Assembly (NCBI RefSeq): GCF_006542395.2
Contig: NZ_CP038231.1
Location: 868,001-932,000 of the forward strand
Direction: 5' to 3'
Origin: Formicincola oecophyllae
GTDB lineage: Bacteria; Pseudomonadota; Alphaproteobacteria; Acetobacterales; Acetobacteraceae
Length of the DNA stretch: 64,000 nt
Shown piece after piece: positions 8,267-63,503 of this stretch. Each line of letters opens with the position of its first letter. Position 1 is the stretch's first letter. Under the pieces are notes generated by a model. That model had not been told where the DNA came from and did not search any database. It was given only the letters and a program-made list of their open reading frames with translations. Both the position numbers and the translations under genes were made by a program.

Positions 8267-9543
8267 AGGGGGCCACCCTTGACGCCATGGTGGCAGACGC
8301 TTTGGCAAGACGAAAAGCGGCCAACCTCCAACGCCAAACCATGGCCTGGCAGCGCCGCCCAGGCCGGTGCAGGCCAGCCTCTGACCAAAACGGCCCATGG
8401 CTGGTCGACCTTGCCTCTAACGATTACCTTGCTTTGTCCTTCCACCCCCATGTCCGCCAAACAGCCCAACAGTGGCTGGAACGCTGGGGGGCTGGGGCTG
8501 GAGCTTCCCCCCTTGTATGTGGCTGGCATGAGGGTGCGGCACGCCTTGAGCAACGCCTGGCCCATCTCAAGCAGGCAGAGGGAGCGCTGCTATTCAACAG
8601 TGGCTGGCAAGCCAATGCTTGCCTGTTGCCAGCGTTAGACCAACTTTCGCGGCTGCAAACGGGCCAAGGCTTGGCGGTGTTCAACGACCGCCTCAACCAT
8701 GCCAGTCTTCACCATGGGTGCGCTGCAGCAGGGGTGCGGCAAAAGCGCTTCCGCCATAATGATGTGGCCCATTTGGCAACCCTTCTGGAACACCACCAAG
8801 CCAGCCTGCCAGCTGGGGAACGGGGGGGATTGAAAATCATCGCGACCGAAAGCGTGTTCTCCATGGATGGTGACCGTGCCCCACTGCACGCCCTGCGTGC
8901 CTTGGCTGACCGTTGGGGAGCGTTGCTACTGGTGGATGAAGCCCACGCGACAGGTGTTTTGGGGCCAAATGGCACTGGGCTGACCTGCGCCAGCGCGCTT
9001 GAGGGGGGGGTGAAAACCACAAACGCGCCCGTCAAGGTCGACATTACCTTAAGCACGGCCAGCAAAGCCCTTGGCGGGGCTGGGGCCTTCATCACTGGCA
9101 GCAAGGCCTTACGTGAATGGCTGGTCAACAGCGCTTCAGGCTATGTTTACAGTACAGCCCCCCCACCAGCGGCGCTGGGCGCGCTTGAGGGCGCCCTTGA
9201 CCTGCTGCCGACTGCAAAACTGGCCCAGGCACGGGCCGCCTTGGGCCGCAATGCGGAACTGCTGCGCCAGCAACTGCACAGTGCTGGCTTTGAAACAGGC
9301 GCCTCCAGCACGCACATCGTGCCTGTTATGGCTGGCAGTGCTGAACAAGCGTTGGAGATGGCAGTGCTTCTGCGCGACCACGGCTTTTTCACAGTGGCCA
9401 TCCGCCCACCAACTGTGCCCCAAGGGCAGGCTCGCCTGCGCCTTTCCCTCAATGCAGCATTGGAGGATAAAGACCTGGAAAAGCTCTGTACGGTTTTAAG
9501 AATGCACTGTCGCCCAACAGGGAGGCAAGGCCGCCATGGCTGA
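8263..9543 (+). CDS. bioF: 8-amino-7-oxononanoate synthase BioF
   Basis: Condenses pimeloyl-ACP with L-alanine to give KAPA. PLP alpha-oxoamine synthase signatures: LASNDYLALSFHP, the glycine-rich SPLVCGWHEGAARLEQRLA, VDEAHATGVLGPNGTG, and the PLP lysine in STASKALGGAGAF (about residue 268). The GTG start at 8263 overlaps the bioA stop; an ATG at 8287 is the alternative but would cut off the usual N-terminal helix. At 426 aa it is slightly longer than most BioF proteins (about 385). The last 8 bases overlap the next gene. Confidence 0.94.
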   Translation: MKGATLDAMVADALARRKAANLQRQTMAWQRRPGRCRPASDQNGPWLVDLASNDYLALSFHPHVRQTAQQWLERWGAGAGASPLVCGWHEGAARLEQRLAHLKQAEGALLFNSGWQANACLLPALDQLSRLQTGQGLAVFNDRLNHASLHHGCAAAGVRQKRFRHNDVAHLATLLEHHQASLPAGERGGLKIIATESVFSMDGDRAPLHALRALADRWGALLLVDEAHATGVLGPNGTGLTCASALEGGVKTTNAPVKVDITLSTASKALGGAGAFITGSKALREWLVNSASGYVYSTAPPPAALGALEGALDLLPTAKLAQARAALGRNAELLRQQLHSAGFETGASSTHIVPVMAGSAEQALEMAVLLRDHGFFTVAIRPPTVPQGQARLRLSLNAALEDKDLEKLCTVLRMHCRPTGRQGRHG

Positions 9544-10228
9544 CCAGCAAACCACCCTCACCCTGTTTTTCCACCAGGGCTGGAGTTACACCCCCCTTTT
9601 TTGGCAACGGACTTTCCAATGCCTGCCACCAGCTTTGCCTGATGGCCGCAAGCTGCTGCTGATTCCATATGTTGCAGCGCTGGCGCAAAAGCGTGCAGCC
9701 AGGAATCCTTGCGTGGCCATTGGCCATTCTGCTGGTCTCATGGACCTTCTCAGCAAGCCTTCACCAGTTTTTAGCCAATCCTGCCTCGGTTTGGTGGCCA
9801 TCAACAGCTTCGCGCGTTTTGTGGAGGGAGGGGACTTCCCCCAAGGCTTCAAGCAGCGCGTGCTGCAGCGCATGGCCAAGGCACTGCAACGCGACCCAGC
9901 AATTACTGTGCGTGATTTCCGCGCCAGCGTGCAGGATCCTACCTCTCCAGCAGTCCCCCACCCTTCCCAATCTGAGCTGGCGCATGGTCTGACCATGCTC
10001 CTTGAAGAGGACAGGCGCCCCGCATTGGCGCCATGGGTTCAGGCGCGGCGCCTGGCTGTGCTGACAGGTGCCCAAGACCCTTTGCCCCCCGCCCACAGCT
10101 TGGCTGGCCTTGGCACGCCAGAGGAACGCTTTGAGGACGGTGGCCATTTGCTGCCACTGACCCATCCCCAACTTTGCGCGCGCTTCATTGTGCAGGCCAT
10201 CATGAATTGGCGCGACCAGGCGTCATGA
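9536..10228 (+). CDS. Alpha/beta hydrolase in bio operon, probable pimeloyl-ACP methyl ester esterase (BioH-type)
   Basis: Serves, by position, as the esterase that frees pimeloyl-ACP from its methyl ester. The sequence shows an alpha/beta hydrolase triad: nucleophile elbow GHSAG with Ser65, an Asp in LTGAQDPLPP, and a His in GGHLLPLTHP near the end. The early HQGWSY resembles the HGWG oxyanion segment of BioH. At 230 aa it is short for BioH (256) and I do not recognise it as BioH, BioG or BioJ. It overlaps bioF by 8 bases and shares ATGA with bioC, so it is embedded in the operon. Function is inferred from fold and context. Confidence 0.75.
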   Translation: MADQQTTLTLFFHQGWSYTPLFWQRTFQCLPPALPDGRKLLLIPYVAALAQKRAARNPCVAIGHSAGLMDLLSKPSPVFSQSCLGLVAINSFARFVEGGDFPQGFKQRVLQRMAKALQRDPAITVRDFRASVQDPTSPAVPHPSQSELAHGLTMLLEEDRRPALAPWVQARRLAVLTGAQDPLPPAHSLAGLGTPEERFEDGGHLLPLTHPQLCARFIVQAIMNWRDQAS

Positions 10229-56930: not shown

Positions 56931-57006
<76 letters not shown>

Positions 57007-57243: not shown

Positions 57244-58086
57244 ATGACTGCTCCTAATCCCACCCTAGATTCCCCCCATCAGACAAAGCCCCCCACAACA
57301 GGGGCTGACAAGGGGCAGGTTTTTTCCCTACGCCCTTTGCCAGGCCGCAAAGCCCCCATCATTGCCGTGATCGGTTGTGACGGTTCTGGTAAATCCACCT
57401 TGACTGAGTGGCTTTATGAACAGGCTGCGCAACGCTACCCCACCGCCCTGTGCCATTTGGGTAAGCAAGGGGGCAATCTTGGGCGGCAAGTCATGGCGTG
57501 GCCTATTCTGGGGCCTTTGATTAAAAAGAAATCCCATACTGAACGTGCTAAGCGCAAAAAGGGTGCTACGGCCTCTGCATCTGTTCTTCTCGTGACTTTG
57601 GGATTGCTGCTGAGGCGTTTCGCGCGTTTTTCCAAAATGAAAACGCACCTTGCAAAGGGGGAATGCATCATCACGGACCGCTTCCCGCAACTAAACCGCC
57701 CTGGCCCCATGGATGGGCCGACCTTCCCCAAATTCACAGGCGACAACTTAGCGTTGCGTAGCCTGAAACGGTTTGAGGAACACCTTTACAAATTCATGCT
57801 CAACACGCCGCCTGACATCATCATCAGGCTAGATATTGACTTGGAAACAGCCTTGGCCCGCAAACCAGACCATGACGGCGAACGTCTGGCGTGTAAAATT
57901 GCAGACTTGCCGCACATCAAATTGCAACGCCCTGCGGCCCTGGGGGGTGGTAGCGTCCCCATTGTGGCTATAGATGGAACCCTTCCTTTAGAATCAGTAC
58001 AGGCAAGCGCACTTAAAGTGCTTGATGCAGCCCTTGCCAGCTATGGCCTTTCCCCGGCAGCGCCTTGCAGGAACCGTCACCCTTGA
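57244..58086 (+). CDS. Thymidylate-kinase-like P-loop protein, copy A
   Basis: 280-aa phosphotransferase of the dTMP-kinase fold, not thymidylate kinase itself. P-loop IAVIGCDGSGKSTLTEWLYEQ, a basic helix cluster (IKKKSHTERAKRKKG), the DRx motif in IITDRFPQLNRPGPMDGP, and the late LDIDLETALARKPDHD. The N-terminal 40 residues are Pro/Thr-rich. Together with the next gene it forms a tandem paralog pair at the head of a glycosyltransferase cluster, so a sugar or lipid-carrier substrate is plausible, but no substrate is shown by the sequence. Ribosome site before ATG 57244 is poor. Confidence 0.75.
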   Translation: MTAPNPTLDSPHQTKPPTTGADKGQVFSLRPLPGRKAPIIAVIGCDGSGKSTLTEWLYEQAAQRYPTALCHLGKQGGNLGRQVMAWPILGPLIKKKSHTERAKRKKGATASASVLLVTLGLLLRRFARFSKMKTHLAKGECIITDRFPQLNRPGPMDGPTFPKFTGDNLALRSLKRFEEHLYKFMLNTPPDIIIRLDIDLETALARKPDHDGERLACKIADLPHIKLQRPAALGGGSVPIVAIDGTLPLESVQASALKVLDAALASYGLSPAAPCRNRHP

Positions 58087-58157
58087 CCTTTAGCCCCTCC
58101 CAAACCGCCCCTTCACCACATGCCCTCCAACCCCATGCTGCTGAAGCTGAACAAACC

Positions 58158-58919
58158 ATGGTCGCTGCACCCCTGACGGCTTCCAGCACCACAGGGCGGC
58201 GCGGGGTCTTGGTGGCCTTGGTGGGGTGTGATGGCTCAGGCAAATCCACCCTCAGTCGTCAGCTCATTCAGATCCTTAACCACCCCTCCCAGGAAGGTGG
58301 GGGGTTGGTGCCAGTCAGACATCCTGTACGCTATGGCTACCTTGGCCAAGGTTCTGGCGACCTGGGGCGGAAAATAGCGGCTTTGCCTGGCGTGGGTGGG
58401 TTCCTTGAAAAACGCATCGCCACACGAGCTAAGAAAGCACGCACAAAAGGCGCCAAAATCCCTGGTTTTCCCACTGCCTTGGTAGTGTTCGCCTTTTCAC
58501 TGTTGCGCTTCAAGCGCTTTCTGAAAGTACGGCAGCAGGTTGAGAAAGGCGATTTCGTCATCACAGACCGTTACCCCCAGCAGGAAGTTCCAGGCCATTG
58601 CGATGGGCCAGGGCTTTCAGCTGGCTATAGCCGCAACCCTTTTGTCCGGGGATTGGCAGCCTTGGAGCGCGCTTGGTACGGCTACATGACGTCCTTCAAG
58701 CCTGATCTGGTCATTTTCCTGGATGTGGACGCTGAACGCGCCGTGGCCCGCAAGCCAGACCATGACCTTGAAGCCTTACGCACCAAGGCAGCTATCATGC
58801 CGCAGCTGCGGTTCAGGGGGGCGGCACGGGTGGTTCTGGATGCCCGCAAGCCCCTCTCTGAAGTGCGCAAAGCCGCTCTGGAGGCATTGATGGCGCGCGG
58901 CCTCATCAAAAAGCTTTGA
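58158..58919 (+). CDS. Thymidylate-kinase-like P-loop protein, copy B
   Basis: Paralog of the preceding gene with the same order of motifs: VALVGCDGSGKSTLSRQLIQ, YGYLGQGSGDLGRKIAALPGVG, a basic segment KRIATRAKKARTKGAK, VITDRYPQQEVPGHCDGPG and LDVDAERAVARKPDHD. The frame is open back to a TTG at 58065, overlapping the previous gene; ATG 58158 is a conservative start. The shared KPDHD and DR(F/Y)PQ motifs define a subfamily distinct from true Tmk, which has the DRY/lid pattern without them. Function unknown. Confidence 0.75.
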   Translation: MVAAPLTASSTTGRRGVLVALVGCDGSGKSTLSRQLIQILNHPSQEGGGLVPVRHPVRYGYLGQGSGDLGRKIAALPGVGGFLEKRIATRAKKARTKGAKIPGFPTALVVFAFSLLRFKRFLKVRQQVEKGDFVITDRYPQQEVPGHCDGPGLSAGYSRNPFVRGLAALERAWYGYMTSFKPDLVIFLDVDAERAVARKPDHDLEALRTKAAIMPQLRFRGAARVVLDARKPLSEVRKAALEALMARGLIKKL

Positions 58920-58987: not shown

Positions 58988-60091
58988 ATGAAGATCACCT
59001 ACATCATCTCCACCTTGAAGGGCGGCGGGGCCCAAAGCCCGGTCCCCGCCATCATCAAAGCCCTTGAAGCAGAGGGGAACGAGGTGCGGCTGGTGGCATG
59101 CCAGCCCAGTGACGGGCGAGCTATGCCTAACCTCAAACGGGCTGGCATAGTTTGGCGCCTGCTCAATCAAGACAACGTTCCAGTGCCCTTCTATTTTTTC
59201 ACAACGCTTTGGAACTGCCTCAAGTTGCTTTCACAAGACAGGCCAGACGTCATCTGGACATCATTGAGCCGCGCCACAGCCATAGCCCAGATAGCTGGCT
59301 GGCTTCTGAAAATCCCTGTGGTCAGCTGGCAGAACAGCACCAGCTTGCGCAGCTACACGCGCATCATGACCGGCCTTTCCAAATTGTGGGTCGCTGATTC
59401 CTCTGTCGTGGCGCATTACATGCGTGATGAAGGCAAAGTGCCTGCAAAACGGGTTGTTGAATGGCCCATCTACAAAGCGCAAACTTCAGCAGTGCCCCCT
59501 TTGCAGTGGGATGGTGTTGGGCGTTTTCACATTGGCAGTTCAGGACGCCTTCACGAGGTCAAGAACTACCCAGCCCTGATTGAAGGCCTGGCCTTGTTCA
59601 AGCGCCAGAACCCCCAGGCAGCCCAGCAAGTGCACCTGACCATCCTGGGGGAAGGTCCTGAACGCGCCAAACTTGAGGCCCTCGTGCGCCAGCATGGTTT
59701 GGAAAGCAACGTTACTCTGCCTGGCTTCAGCGATGACGTGCCCTCTTTCCTGGAAAGCCTGCACCTTTACCTGCAGCCTTCACGCTATGAGGGCATGTGC
59801 CTGGCGCTTCATGAAGCTATGGCAGCTGGCGTGCCCTGCGCTGCAACGCCTTTCGGCCAAATGAGGGAAAGCCTTGATGGAGGGCGCTGTGGCTTCGTGA
59901 TTGACCCTGCCAACCCTGCACAGTCCATCGCCGCCATTCTGGCTCATGCCATGGCCAACCAAAGCGCGCTGCGCGACATGGCCCTGATTGCCCAGAAAAA
60001 CACCCTCAGCCAGTTCGGACCTGAAGCTTTCCAAAAACGCGCCCAAAACGTGCTGGCCATGATTCAGAAAGCCATCAAGCCCAAACCTTAA
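58988..60091 (+). CDS. GT4 glycosyltransferase, copy A
   Basis: GT-B fold retaining glycosyltransferase, 367 aa. N-terminal acceptor domain starts ITYIISTLKGGGAQ; middle RPDVIWTSLSRATA and PVVSWQNS; the C-terminal donor domain has SSGRLHEVKNYPALIEGL, ILGEGPERAKLEALV, the E-x7-E region PSRYEGMCLALHEAMAAGVP and CAATPFGQ. From residue 170 to 356 the DNA is almost identical to the second copy at 61.2 kb. Probably adds a sugar to a surface glycan; donor and acceptor unknown. Confidence 0.9.
   Translation: MKITYIISTLKGGGAQSPVPAIIKALEAEGNEVRLVACQPSDGRAMPNLKRAGIVWRLLNQDNVPVPFYFFTTLWNCLKLLSQDRPDVIWTSLSRATAIAQIAGWLLKIPVVSWQNSTSLRSYTRIMTGLSKLWVADSSVVAHYMRDEGKVPAKRVVEWPIYKAQTSAVPPLQWDGVGRFHIGSSGRLHEVKNYPALIEGLALFKRQNPQAAQQVHLTILGEGPERAKLEALVRQHGLESNVTLPGFSDDVPSFLESLHLYLQPSRYEGMCLALHEAMAAGVPCAATPFGQMRESLDGGRCGFVIDPANPAQSIAAILAHAMANQSALRDMALIAQKNTLSQFGPEAFQKRAQNVLAMIQKAIKPKP
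59495..60054. repeat. 560-bp direct repeat, copy 1
   Basis: Identical to 61709-62268 as read line by line, except for one base (60039 G versus 62253 A, Arg to His). It covers the C-terminal half of both GT4 genes and is in the same orientation at an offset of 2214 bases. Confidence 0.95.
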
Positions 60092-61014
60092 CGCCGCTCC
60101 CCTTCTGGCATGGCCAGGGGTGGTACGTGTTTATCAGGTGGGACGTTTCCGCTCCCACGGGCTTGGTTCACAAAATCGCCCAGGCTTTCCAAAATTGCCT
60201 TGGGGGGCATGAATTGGTCGTGCCGGTAATCCTGCTGTCCATCCATGGCACGCTCTATAAGCACATCATGCAATTCACCCATCATGCCGTTCATAGTGGC
60301 CAGGGATTTGGCCAGGTCATCCAACCATGTACTGGGCCTGATGACGCGCAACGTGTCGTTGAATGACGTGCGGCGGCTGATGACCTTGCGCATGCAGTGG
60401 AACGCATGCGCACTCATGCCGTTGCCTTTCAAGGCTGATTGGGTGGCTTGGGCCAGATTGTCATTTTCCTTGCGCTGCCATGCCAAAACCCCCTCTGGGG
60501 TGTCTGGCCTGAAGTGGCGCAGTTCAAGCTTGGCCAACCACCAAAAAAGCGGCGATGTAGTCAGCAACAGCCACAAACCGTAATAAAGGGTGGTGTAACG
60601 GCGCCCATTCTTGAAGGCATCCTGCATGTTCCCCATGAGCACAATGGCGCTTTGCAGCAACACAGGGTATATGTGGCGCCTGTCGAAATTGACGAAGCCA
60701 AAACGCAAATGTTTGCAGCGGCCGCGTACATCCTTGAAGGCAAGCTGATCTTCTGGTGTGGCGCTCCCTTGGCGCGCTATACGCCACACCAGCCGCCTGA
60801 AGGCCTTCATGTCCGCGCCACGGTCAAGCAGTTGCCAGCACAACGCATAGCCAGCCTGGATCTCCGCCGCCGTGCAGCGTGGCATGACATTGTCTGGCAA
60901 GACAGCATCGGGGTGGGGTTCATCGTCAATCAAAATGTAGCCATTAAGCTTGTCCAAAATGGCTTTTTTGAAACGCGGCCAATCAAGTTTGACGGATGGG
61001 GGGGCAACGGGCAT
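60088..61014 (-). CDS. Helical protein with CHAD-like signature inside glycan cluster
   Basis: 308-aa protein of unknown function on the strand opposite to its neighbours. Mostly helical, with a hydrophobic stretch (YYGLWLLLTTSPLFWWL, about 144-160) that may be one membrane or buried helix. The C-terminal part carries HAFHCMRKVISRRTSFNDTL (His206, Arg209, Lys210, Arg214) and MMGELHDVLIERAM, which together recall the CHAD domain pattern (H-x-x-R-K...R, then LG-x-x-H/RD) that binds polyphosphate. Basic residues are abundant. It converges with GT4 copy A (4-base overlap) and is divergent from copy B. CHAD assignment is tentative. Confidence 0.5.
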   Translation of the reverse strand: MPVAPPSVKLDWPRFKKAILDKLNGYILIDDEPHPDAVLPDNVMPRCTAAEIQAGYALCWQLLDRGADMKAFRRLVWRIARQGSATPEDQLAFKDVRGRCKHLRFGFVNFDRRHIYPVLLQSAIVLMGNMQDAFKNGRRYTTLYYGLWLLLTTSPLFWWLAKLELRHFRPDTPEGVLAWQRKENDNLAQATQSALKGNGMSAHAFHCMRKVISRRTSFNDTLRVIRPSTWLDDLAKSLATMNGMMGELHDVLIERAMDGQQDYRHDQFMPPKAILESLGDFVNQARGSGNVPPDKHVPPLAMPEGERR

Positions 61015-61213: not shown

Positions 61214-62299
61214 ATGAAAATCAGCTACCTTATTTCCACCTTTGAAGATGGTGGCGCCGAATTCGCCCTGCCCGCCATCGTCAAGGCGCTTGAAGCCGAG
61301 GGTCATGACGTGCAGCTGGTGGCCTGCAATCGCAGCAATGGCGCAACCATCCCACGTTTGGACAAGGCGGGCATTCGCTGGCAATTGCTGCATGACGCCC
61401 GCCCCCCTTTCCATGCCAGCGTCTGGGCCTTTGCCCGGCTGATGTTGCATAAGCGGCCAGACGTCATCTGGACATCGCTGAGCCGCGCCACGGCGGCAGG
61501 GCAATTGGTGGGCAAATTGTTGAACATTCCCGTGGTCAGTTGGAAGCACAGCGCCAGTCTGCGCCCCCACACACGGCGAATGAGGAACTTCTCCACCCTG
61601 TGGGTGGCTGACTCCCCAGATGTTGCGCGCTTCATGCGCGATGAAGGGCCCCTGGACGCTGACCGCGTTGCCCAATGGCCCCTTTACCAGGCCCAGCCCC
61701 CATCTACCCCCCCTTTGCAGTGGGATGGTGTTGGGCGTTTTCACATTGGCAGTTCAGGACGCCTTCACGAGGTCAAGAACTACCCAGCCCTGATTGAAGG
61801 CCTGGCCTTGTTCAAGCGCCAGAACCCCCAGGCAGCCCAGCAAGTGCACCTGACCATCCTGGGGGAAGGTCCTGAACGCGCCAAACTTGAGGCCCTCGTG
61901 CGCCAGCATGGTTTGGAAAGCAACGTTACTCTGCCTGGCTTCAGCGATGACGTGCCCTCTTTCCTGGAAAGCCTGCACCTTTACCTGCAGCCTTCACGCT
62001 ATGAGGGCATGTGCCTGGCGCTTCATGAAGCTATGGCAGCTGGCGTGCCCTGCGCTGCAACGCCTTTCGGCCAAATGAGGGAAAGCCTTGATGGAGGGCG
62101 CTGTGGCTTCGTGATTGACCCTGCCAACCCTGCACAGTCCATCGCCGCCATTCTGGCTCATGCCATGGCCAACCAAAGCGCGCTGCGCGACATGGCCCTG
62201 ATTGCCCAGAAAAACACCCTCAGCCAGTTCGGACCTGAAGCTTTCCAAAAACACGCCCAAAACGTGCTTCAAGCTTTGCAGAACAGGTTGCGCGCTTGA
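61214..62299 (+). CDS. GT4 glycosyltransferase, copy B
   Basis: Paralog of copy A, 361 aa. The first about 165 residues are similar but clearly diverged (ISYLISTFEDGGAEFALPAIV, RPDVIWTSLSRATAAGQLVG, PVVSWKHSASL), while residues 166-352 are nearly identical to copy A. This pattern fits two enzymes that share donor-sugar specificity but use different acceptors. AAGG lies 11 bases before ATG 61214. Confidence 0.9.
   Translation: MKISYLISTFEDGGAEFALPAIVKALEAEGHDVQLVACNRSNGATIPRLDKAGIRWQLLHDARPPFHASVWAFARLMLHKRPDVIWTSLSRATAAGQLVGKLLNIPVVSWKHSASLRPHTRRMRNFSTLWVADSPDVARFMRDEGPLDADRVAQWPLYQAQPPSTPPLQWDGVGRFHIGSSGRLHEVKNYPALIEGLALFKRQNPQAAQQVHLTILGEGPERAKLEALVRQHGLESNVTLPGFSDDVPSFLESLHLYLQPSRYEGMCLALHEAMAAGVPCAATPFGQMRESLDGGRCGFVIDPANPAQSIAAILAHAMANQSALRDMALIAQKNTLSQFGPEAFQKHAQNVLQALQNRLRA
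61709..62268. repeat. 560-bp direct repeat, copy 2
   Basis: Second copy of the repeat at 59495-60054; see that entry. Recombination between the two would remove 2214 bases, including the CHAD-like gene, and leave one hybrid GT4 gene. Confidence 0.95.
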
Positions 62300-62315: not shown

Positions 62316-63503
62316 ATGAAAAGTGACACTACCCAGTCATTCAGCCGCCCCGCCAAGCCTTGGCGCATCGCGGTGCTCTACATTGCTGAACCCTACCATT
62401 GCTACCACCTCGCCCCATTGGCCAGCGCGCTGGCAGCCCGGGCGGATTGCACGGTGACGGAATTTGTCAATTTCGATGCCTGCTTGCCTCATATCCAGCG
62501 TATTAGGGCGAAGCTGCGCCAGCCTGAACTGCCCCGCGCCCCCCTGCGCCGCCCCATGGCCGCACGCCTGCTGGAGGCCACACGCCTGCTAGACAAGCAG
62601 CGTGAAGCCATCCTGCGGGCCAATGTCAGCACCCTGGAGCCTTATGACGCCATTGTGACGACGGAATATCCTGCAGCCCTGTTGCGCCAGGCTGGTCTTC
62701 GCCATCCCAAGCTCATCTACTTGACCCATGGCAGTGGCGAACGCCGGGTGGGCGATGAGCATTTGTTGAAGCACTTTGACCTGGCCTTAGTCAGTGGGCC
62801 CAAAACAGTGAACTATTTCTTGCGTGAAGGAATCTGCAAAGCTGGGCAAATCAAGGACATTGGGCTGCCCAAATTCGACCTGGCCGGCCCCCACCTTCAA
62901 AATGCCCAGCTCAAAACGCCAGCACGCGCGAGGGCTCCCCAGAACATCCTCTACAACCCCCATTACAAAAAGAAGCTCAGCGCTTGGCCAAGGGCCCTCA
63001 AAGCACTTCACAGCGCCTTCATGGCCACACGGCGGGATGGGCAAGAACTGCTGATCGCACCCCACGTCAAAATGTTTGATGAAAGCTGGGGGTTATTGAA
63101 ACGCCGCTTCCAAAAGCTAGCCTCCGATCATGTCCATGTGGACACGGGCAGCGTGGCCGCCCTGGACATGACCAACGCCGCCCAGGCTGACATATATGTG
63201 GGGGATGTCAGCAGCCAGTTTTATGAGTTCCTACACACGCCAAAGCCCTGCGTTTTCCTCAACCTCAACCGCCTTCCCTGGCGCGACAACCCTTATTTCC
63301 GCAACTGGACGCTGGGGGACGTGGTTGAGGACCCAGACGCCATCATGGACGCCATCAACGCAGCGCCTGCGCGCCACCACCTTTACAAAGCACAGCAGGA
63401 AGAGATGCTTCAGGAGACATTCGGGCCATGGCCCCTGCTGGGTGCTTCTGAACGCGGCGCCAGCACCATCTGCACCTTCTTGAAGGCCACACGCCAAGGC
63501 TGA
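62316..63503 (+). CDS. CDP-glycerol glycerophosphotransferase-like protein
   Basis: 395-aa GT-B-like enzyme related to teichoic-acid and capsule phosphotransferases. Typical features: LIYLTHGSGERR, DLALVSGPKTVNYFL, LYNPHYKKKLSAW, and the C-terminal nucleotide site ADIYVGDVSSQFYEFLHTPKPCVFLN. The ATG at 62316 follows AAGGAG by about 12 bases. It lies 16 bases after GT4 copy B, so they are probably co-transcribed. The product may add a polyol-phosphate or sugar-phosphate to the cell-surface glycan; this is inferred. Confidence 0.8.
   Translation: MKSDTTQSFSRPAKPWRIAVLYIAEPYHCYHLAPLASALAARADCTVTEFVNFDACLPHIQRIRAKLRQPELPRAPLRRPMAARLLEATRLLDKQREAILRANVSTLEPYDAIVTTEYPAALLRQAGLRHPKLIYLTHGSGERRVGDEHLLKHFDLALVSGPKTVNYFLREGICKAGQIKDIGLPKFDLAGPHLQNAQLKTPARARAPQNILYNPHYKKKLSAWPRALKALHSAFMATRRDGQELLIAPHVKMFDESWGLLKRRFQKLASDHVHVDTGSVAALDMTNAAQADIYVGDVSSQFYEFLHTPKPCVFLNLNRLPWRDNPYFRNWTLGDVVEDPDAIMDAINAAPARHHLYKAQQEEMLQETFGPWPLLGASERGASTICTFLKATRQG

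Follow-up and report, generated by a model that had tools for sequence, protein, structure and literature searches.

Tandem thymidylate-kinase-like proteins of Formicincola oecophyllae, members of the YghR/YghS/YghT family, as candidate sphingolipid head-group kinases

What do two tandem genes for thymidylate-kinase-like proteins, here named KA and KB, do beside glycosyltransferase genes in Formicincola oecophyllae? The two genes lie in a stretch of 64,000 nucleotides, hereafter the window, in the genome labelled G000 (Table 1). An earlier note on this DNA proposed that their products phosphorylate a sugar, heptose or polyol on a growing glycan.

Table 1. Features of the window and of the rest of the G000 genome. 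Positions with the prefix C1 lie outside the window.
Feature	Position	Strand	Observation
tRNA-Lys	56931-57006		upstream of KA
KA	57244-58086	+	P-loop kinase of the Tmk family, YghT-type; start at the first ATG
KB	58158-58919	+	P-loop kinase with Tmk fold; outside the KA clade, like YghR and YghS
GT4 glycosyltransferase, copy 1	58988-60091	+	relatives of 32-39% identity in 7/79 related loci
Helical protein, CHAD-fold model	60088-61014	-	homologue in flanks of 50/79 related loci
GT4 glycosyltransferase, copy 2	61214-62299	+	Pfam match
CDP-glycerol glycerophosphotransferase-like gene, weak	62319-63503	+	PF04464 at 19.5 bits, below the cut-off of 22.1
Flippase-like protein	C1:941128-942462	-	about 14 kb downstream of KB
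Tmk proper	C1:116545-117135		130 bits
SPT, ACP, ligase, epimerase-like gene	C1:6391-10940		one cluster
CpgB-like kinase, metallophosphatase, LptF/LptG pair, fatty-acid hydroxylase, NTP transferase, GINT1_N-type protein, inositol monophosphatase	C1:29980-39448 (L135:5980-15448)		second LptF/LptG-like protein identified by BLAST only
Ceramide synthase	C1:1829173-1830312		YghO-type profile

KA and KB are intact, open, tandem reading frames, and their products share 37% identity across 242 columns (E = 7e-47). The ATG taken as the start of KB is the sole ATG 5' of its P-loop, while the longest reading frame begins with a TTG at 58065 and overlaps KA; the query used in searches and models had the Met removed (58161-58916, 252 aa). 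As the earlier note had described, both proteins carry GCDGSGKST and ARKPDHD together with DRFPQ or DRYPQ, and a basic helix region is present at residues 102-128 of the KB model, with a hydrophobic run first and an Arg/Lys-rich end, which might touch the membrane. Among 64 KB and 47 KA rows, D-R-[YF]-P-Q is invariant, as is R-K-x-D-H with the exception of one Glu; the conservation of the P-loop is partly by construction, because relatives were retrieved with a P-loop pattern.

The description of the two proteins as non-standard thymidylate kinases (Tmk) was also confirmed. Against PF02223 (cut-off 27 bits), KA scores 25.5 and KB 29.9 bits, the latter barely above, and against the dTMP-kinase equivalog TIGR00041 both fail by far (31.4 and 33.6 bits, cut-off 83.25), with no close match to a characterised thymidylate kinase. 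The genome possesses a separate Tmk gene, its sole PF02223 match at E <= 0.001. When solved structures were searched by sequence, no Tmk was found at E <= 0.01 for KA alone, and the KB profile gave weak Tmk matches (best 3.5e-08). DAGK_cat is absent among the families matched by KA and KB up to E 10, and no relative of either was found in one protein scan of viral contigs.

The AlphaFold2 model of KB (pLDDT 90.3, 64 sequences) has thymidylate kinases as its best PDB matches (Z about 16 over some 173 residues, 18-29% identity in the alignments listed); the best 50 PDB rows are all thymidylate kinases, and no sugar kinase or LpxK is among the matches listed. The features of the nucleoside monophosphate (NMP) kinase fold, namely P-loop, DR motif and basic LID, are thus shared with Tmk, in KB by the model and in both proteins by motif counts. 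Nearly every KB and KA row retains the P-loop Lys, the DR pair and the R-K-x-D-H...K of the LID; in type II Tmks the catalytic basic residues are located in the LID. On the acceptor side the proteins differ. The Arg of the Tmk REPGG loop holds the dTMP phosphate, whereas, once the KB profile is aligned by HMM with Aquifex Tmk, this position is Leu or Met in 64/64 KB rows and Leu in 47/47 KA rows; the alignment to P. falciparum Tmk differs at this loop, with its Arg opposite Gly. After the DR motif, KA and KB have PQ..E..G..DGP where Tmk has base-reading residues. R116, the Arg that follows the FS motif, is invariant, and Phe or Leu occupies position F112, as in the Tmk base pocket. Since the catalytic residues are kept and acceptor-side residues are changed, KA and KB are predicted to be active kinases that should use an acceptor other than that of Tmk.

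To which family do they belong? A tblastn search of plasmid records matched 12 records, including E. coli YghR/YghS/YghT, Pseudomonas veronii, Rahnella, Novosphingobium and Acetobacter, and five of the 12 loci were examined. The three E. coli proteins share the motifs and are 33-41% identical to KA or KB. When 84,980 genomes were scanned, 246 related stretches were recovered, and the best-scoring 79 of them make up the census used below; one Commensalibacter bin contributes two of these loci (L036, L038), as does one Nitrotoga (L068, L084). The family tree and the table of gene neighbours proposed as a check in the earlier note were built from this material, and by shared motifs and position inside the tree KA and KB are members of the YghR/YghS/YghT family. 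In the maximum-likelihood tree (145 rows), a KA clade of 57 rows (support 100/98) holds YghT and the window's KA, whose exact position in the clade is unsure owing to a long branch (2.14). KB rows lie outside this clade, and a duplication in beta/gamma types into KBs and KBr (YghS and YghR types, respectively) comprises 44 rows (100/100). Because members of the KA clade come from Acetobacteraceae, from sphingomonads and from beta/gamma types as well as from one Myxococcota MAG, the clade is old and a recent tandem duplication of KA and KB is ruled out. The tree thus indicates a family that is real and old.

Both types are present in 59/79 loci. A single reading frame of 467-520 aa spans the kinase pair in 14 Bombella/Saccharibacter-type loci, and its halves group with KA and KB respectively (6 of the 14 loci are in the tree); a KBs-KBr fusion was found in two Nitrotoga loci. 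In the alignment of the fused KA-KB proteins, all 12 single KA rows were aligned to the C-terminal half. The fusions and the shared presence suggest that KA and KB work together. In a Myxococcales MAG (L092), KA, KB and a flippase-like gene occur together, with ceramide synthase in the same bin; this locus is due to either horizontal transfer or a binning error. The subfamily had been said to lack a described function, and its E. coli members are indeed annotated as 'putative ATP-binding protein'. The open-licence literature yielded no study of the function of the KA/KB family, no title or abstract opening about sphingolipids among 12 papers naming yghR, yghS or yghT, and no paper joining dTMP kinase, sphingolipid, ceramide and gene cluster.

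The neighbours of KA and KB in the window agree with those given in the earlier note, i.e., two GT4 genes and a CDP-glycerol-transferase-like gene, to which the reverse-strand gene for a helical protein, unmentioned there, is added. The tRNA-Lys gene upstream of KA is preceded by parA-parB-like genes (read by eye). Beyond the window follow GT2-type and phosphoethanolamine-transferase-like proteins (both well under NCBI cut-offs), several GT-C-looking proteins (by eye), a histidine phosphatase, and the flippase-like protein, which has a weak MatE match and is related to E. coli YghQ. The two GT4 copies are about 90% identical in DNA across 819 aligned bases with divergent ends, and two GT-C-like neighbours (L012:6694-8391 and 8388-10112) share 93% identity over 1560 bases, again with divergent ends, a pattern such as would be left by gene conversion or recent duplication.

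Across the 79 loci, partners were called by BLAST to a few reference proteins within the flanks, so that divergent partners are missed and short contigs depress the counts. A flippase-like protein was called in 47/79 loci, 34 of them with at least 35% identity (the 13 calls below 35% may be other MOP proteins), and a flippase-like or CHAD-type protein in 61/79. The conserved link to glycosyltransferases, whose absence in other genomes the earlier note had named as evidence against its proposal, was for the most part not seen: a GT4 gene like those of the window occurs in 7/79 loci (L043, L061, L062, L078, L084, L087, L090; alphaproteobacterial and other lineages), and a PF04464-like CDP-glycerol-transferase-like gene in 0/79 by BLAST within the flanks, the latter gene being probably local to this genome. 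The association of KA and KB with glycosyltransferases is therefore weak. As the Bombella-type locus of genome G032 has the kinases, the CHAD-type protein and the flippase without intervening genes, those of the window that concern glycans may have been inserted later and locally; however, GT4 relatives accompany the kinases in some other lineages.

Other genes near the kinases point to lipids. One or more of SPT, CerR, ligase and YghO can be found in the flanks of 9/79 loci, all nine with SPT, and SPT is present in the flanks of three of the five plasmid-collection loci examined (E. coli, Rahnella and P. veronii). The kinase clusters of these three contain fatty acyl-AMP ligase, epimerase-type reductase, ACP, SPT, YghO and LptF/LptG-type genes, which correspond to the ceramide genes aasR, epi, acpR, spt and aca/yghO as recorded for E. 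coli BL21(DE3) in passages of PMC9386255. LptF/LptG genes are near the kinases in a few loci only, and Acetobacteraceae and sphingomonad loci have no ceramide genes within the flanks. Full-length E. coli loci resemble the one described here in having the flippase YghQ and a CHAD-type neighbour, whereas the kinases stand beside the ceramide genes in E. coli and the ceramide genes lie elsewhere in the genome of the window. In beta/gamma loci, an aspartyl/asparaginyl-hydroxylase, presumably LpxO-type, is located near KBr (L009:12723-13472 and seven genome loci), and PAP2 phosphatases and a PEMT-type methyltransferase recur; these enzymes may modify the same lipid as the kinases.

The reverse-strand gene of the window models as a CHAD fold. 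Its model (pLDDT 91.1) has five best matches with Z 11.7-12.6 over 203-240 residues, three of which are titled CHAD (6qv5, 6qva and 6qv7); the other two, 3e0s and PptA (6rn5), we take to be CHAD proteins as well. The match to YgiF reaches Z 9.1, and the best other row 8.6. For helical proteins a Z below 13 is borderline, and the Foldseek E is only 0.03. Pfam gave no family at cut-off for this protein (only an unrelated family at E 0.17), and a sequence search of solved structures gave no match up to E 1. According to passages of PMC6537752, YgiF contains CHAD and the CHAD fold binds polyphosphate. The conserved basic residues R97, K101, H114, H206, R209, K210 and H249 are at most suggestive of such binding.

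Our reading draws on co-occurrence with ceramide synthase, searched for with a profile of YghO-type proteins. It was found in 24/25 genomes of a first set, the miss being G017, which has a distant kinase relative only, and in 48/50 of a second set. With G017 left out, 72/74 genomes with close kinases have it (G000, G032 and 72 locus genomes; loci L023, L026, L031, L036, L038, L057 and L084, 7/79, are excluded from this count); these genomes are related and were picked as best-scoring loci, and some labels denote one genome (e.g., G107 and G060), so the counts are not independent. The two misses are a Crenothrix MAG (L070) and an alphaproteobacterial MAG (L086), and the latter bin may be wrong, because L081 and L086 have identical kinase rows in the tree. 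In samples picked irrespective of the kinases, ceramide synthase was present in 10/10 Acetobacteraceae with close kinases versus 51/140 others (n=150; Fisher p 8e-5) and in 5/5 versus 38/393 across the phylum (n=398; p 1e-5), where the two samples share members and the p-values ignore relatedness; of the first-look candidates a part was scored per genome, up to 18 in the Acetobacteraceae kinase search and 6 and 4 in the phylum sample. SPT follows the same pattern: 13/13 kinase-bearing genomes have it at E <= 3.6e-145, whereas in 8/8 controls, relatives free of both kinases and synthase, the values lie between 1.0e-54 and 1.7e-71. Kinases and ceramide synthase co-occur in a near-strict manner, and the association with sphingolipid synthesis is strong, the strongest of those found. 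Since ceramide synthase also occurs without the kinases, they are not needed for ceramide itself. Among genomes with distant kinases only (E 6.6e-17 to 6.2e-38), one of seven has ceramide synthase (G133; G017, G112, G123, G363, G479 and G490 do not), and the wider family therefore has a different role.

G000 has the proteobacterial sphingolipid pathway genes for SPT, ACP, acyl-AMP ligase and ceramide synthase, at sites distant from the window; SPT scores 595 bits (NCBI cut-off 500) and the ligase 840 bits (cut-off 600). A further locus with a CpgB-like kinase and an LptF/LptG pair is conserved in G032, where it adjoins spt. It also holds a fatty-acid hydroxylase, a GINT1_N-type protein, which is of the glucosamine inositolphosphorylceramide transferase type, and an inositol monophosphatase; this gene set is a hint that acetic acid bacteria have inositol-type phosphosphingolipids. 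A short-chain dehydrogenase (L119:8036-8845), with a look-alike in G032 (L120:10891-11787), adjoins the lone ceramide synthase in both genomes and could be a ceramide or 3-ketosphinganine reductase.

Taken with the predicted change of acceptor, these results lead us to propose, with a probability of about 0.6, that a sphingolipid or glycosphingolipid receives phosphate on its head group from KA and KB. Ceramide would be made from genes elsewhere (SPT, ACP, acyl-AMP ligase and ceramide synthase), and at times a GT4 enzyme would put a sugar on the ceramide-based lipid. KA and KB, probably paired and located on the inner face of the inner membrane, would then move a phosphate of ATP onto the head group or its sugar; the flippase-like protein would turn the phosphorylated product over, LptF/LptG-like permeases would carry it to the outer membrane, and the ligand of the CHAD-fold protein would be the phosphate-rich head group or polyphosphate. 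An envelope role, as the earlier note implied, is thereby supported. A precedent for such chemistry, with no kinship implied, is the lipid A 4'-kinase LpxK, also a P-loop enzyme, whose glycolipid substrate is phosphorylated at the inner membrane.

Comparable systems are described in Caulobacter. Passages of PMC11324152 report a phosphosphingolipid cluster with ceramide genes, a potential flippase and LptF2/LptG2, as found here; its CC_1166 and our flippase-like protein are alike by description only, and the word 'thymidylate' is absent from the main text. According to passages of PMC11087976, SPT and ceramide synthase act inside the cell and CerR in the periplasm, and the flippase had not yet been identified; the flippase-like protein near KA and KB is a candidate for it. 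The ceramide kinase CpgB would share a pathway with KA and KB, namely phosphorylation of a ceramide-based lipid, but it is described in PMC10331486 as an LCB5/DAGK-type enzyme, a family other than theirs. KA and KB as CpgB homologues are ruled out by this domain and by the separate CpgB-like gene in G000.

Other roles have to be weighed against head-group phosphorylation. The proposal of the earlier note, in which the kinases serve a surface glycan that has no relation to sphingolipids and act on its sugar, heptose or polyol, appears unlikely: the GT4 genes beside the kinases in seven loci of several lineages speak for it, as do the neighbours, polysaccharide-like by eye, of the longer G017 protein that contains a distant relative, but 72/79 loci have no window-like GT4, none stands between the genes of the minimal G032 locus, and the co-occurrence with ceramide synthase would be left unexplained. 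Its glycan part loses the conserved glycosyltransferase link, while a phosphorylated glycosphingolipid would fit both readings. Distinctly unlikely is that KA and KB are ceramide kinases proper, which convert ceramide to ceramide 1-phosphate (C1P) and replace CpgB. With a CpgB-like profile of three rows, such genes were found in 17/24 kinase-bearing genomes and 0/6 controls, and 7/8 beta/gamma kinase-bearing genomes had no match, all seven with KBs and KBr, which favours a replacement and is no more than a hint that lipid kinases are kept constant in number. However, absence by a profile of three rows is weak, a CpgB-like gene is also present in 10/10 kinase-bearing Acetobacteraceae examined, G000 included, and in P. 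veronii a DAGK_cat gene sits inside the same cluster. Because G000 has its own CpgB-like kinase, the step of KA and KB there should differ from C1P formation.

An NMP kinase that supplies a nucleotide-activated head-group donor would agree with the Tmk fold and with R116 and F112, and CpgD makes CDP-glycerate according to PMC12275187. However, the REPGG Arg is replaced throughout, and such an enzyme would have no need for two or three paralogs per genome; we regard this role as improbable. Very improbable is that the proteins are ATP-binding regulators or assembly factors of a sphingolipid export machine without lipid kinase activity, as the association with flippase-like and CHAD-type proteins and, in few loci, LptF/LptG would allow, since the Tmk-type phosphoryl-transfer residues are kept in both paralogs. 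Within the preferred head-group phosphorylation, a speculative and improbable extension is a relay, proposed because NMP kinases of the same fold transfer phosphate onto phosphate: KA and the KB(s) would build di- or oligophosphate sphingolipid heads, which the CHAD-type protein would read or shield before flipping. If true, membranes would contain a new class of lipid, the oligophosphate sphingolipid, with YghR, YghS and YghT as its enzymes in most E. coli.

Finally, we also examined the distribution of these genes in E. coli. Among 5426 complete genomes, spt is present in 4088, yghT in 4685 and the flippase gene in 4573, of which 4121 match along 80% or more of the query. In K-12 MG1655 (L130:13044-18824), the site of the ceramide genes of other E. 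coli strains is occupied by an IS5, with yghO on one side and a shortened yghQ (1068 bases versus 1350 in L008) on the other, and the annotated frame of yghO extends 70 bases into the IS5. No ceramide genes are annotated in the K-12 stretch around the IS5, while yghR, yghS and yghT remain; this loss may explain the lack of a K-12 phenotype. The L008 record (NZ_MG591698.1) is labelled as an E. coli plasmid and carries the hyb operon, gss and pitB; as these lie on the K-12 chromosome, it is probably a piece of chromosome. With the reading given here, a role is proposed for four E. coli genes that had none (yghQ, yghR, yghS and yghT), and the family offers candidates for two open points of bacterial sphingolipids, the head-group chemistry outside Caulobacter and the flippase. 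Because spt and yghT are common in E. coli, the question would be testable in a common laboratory strain.
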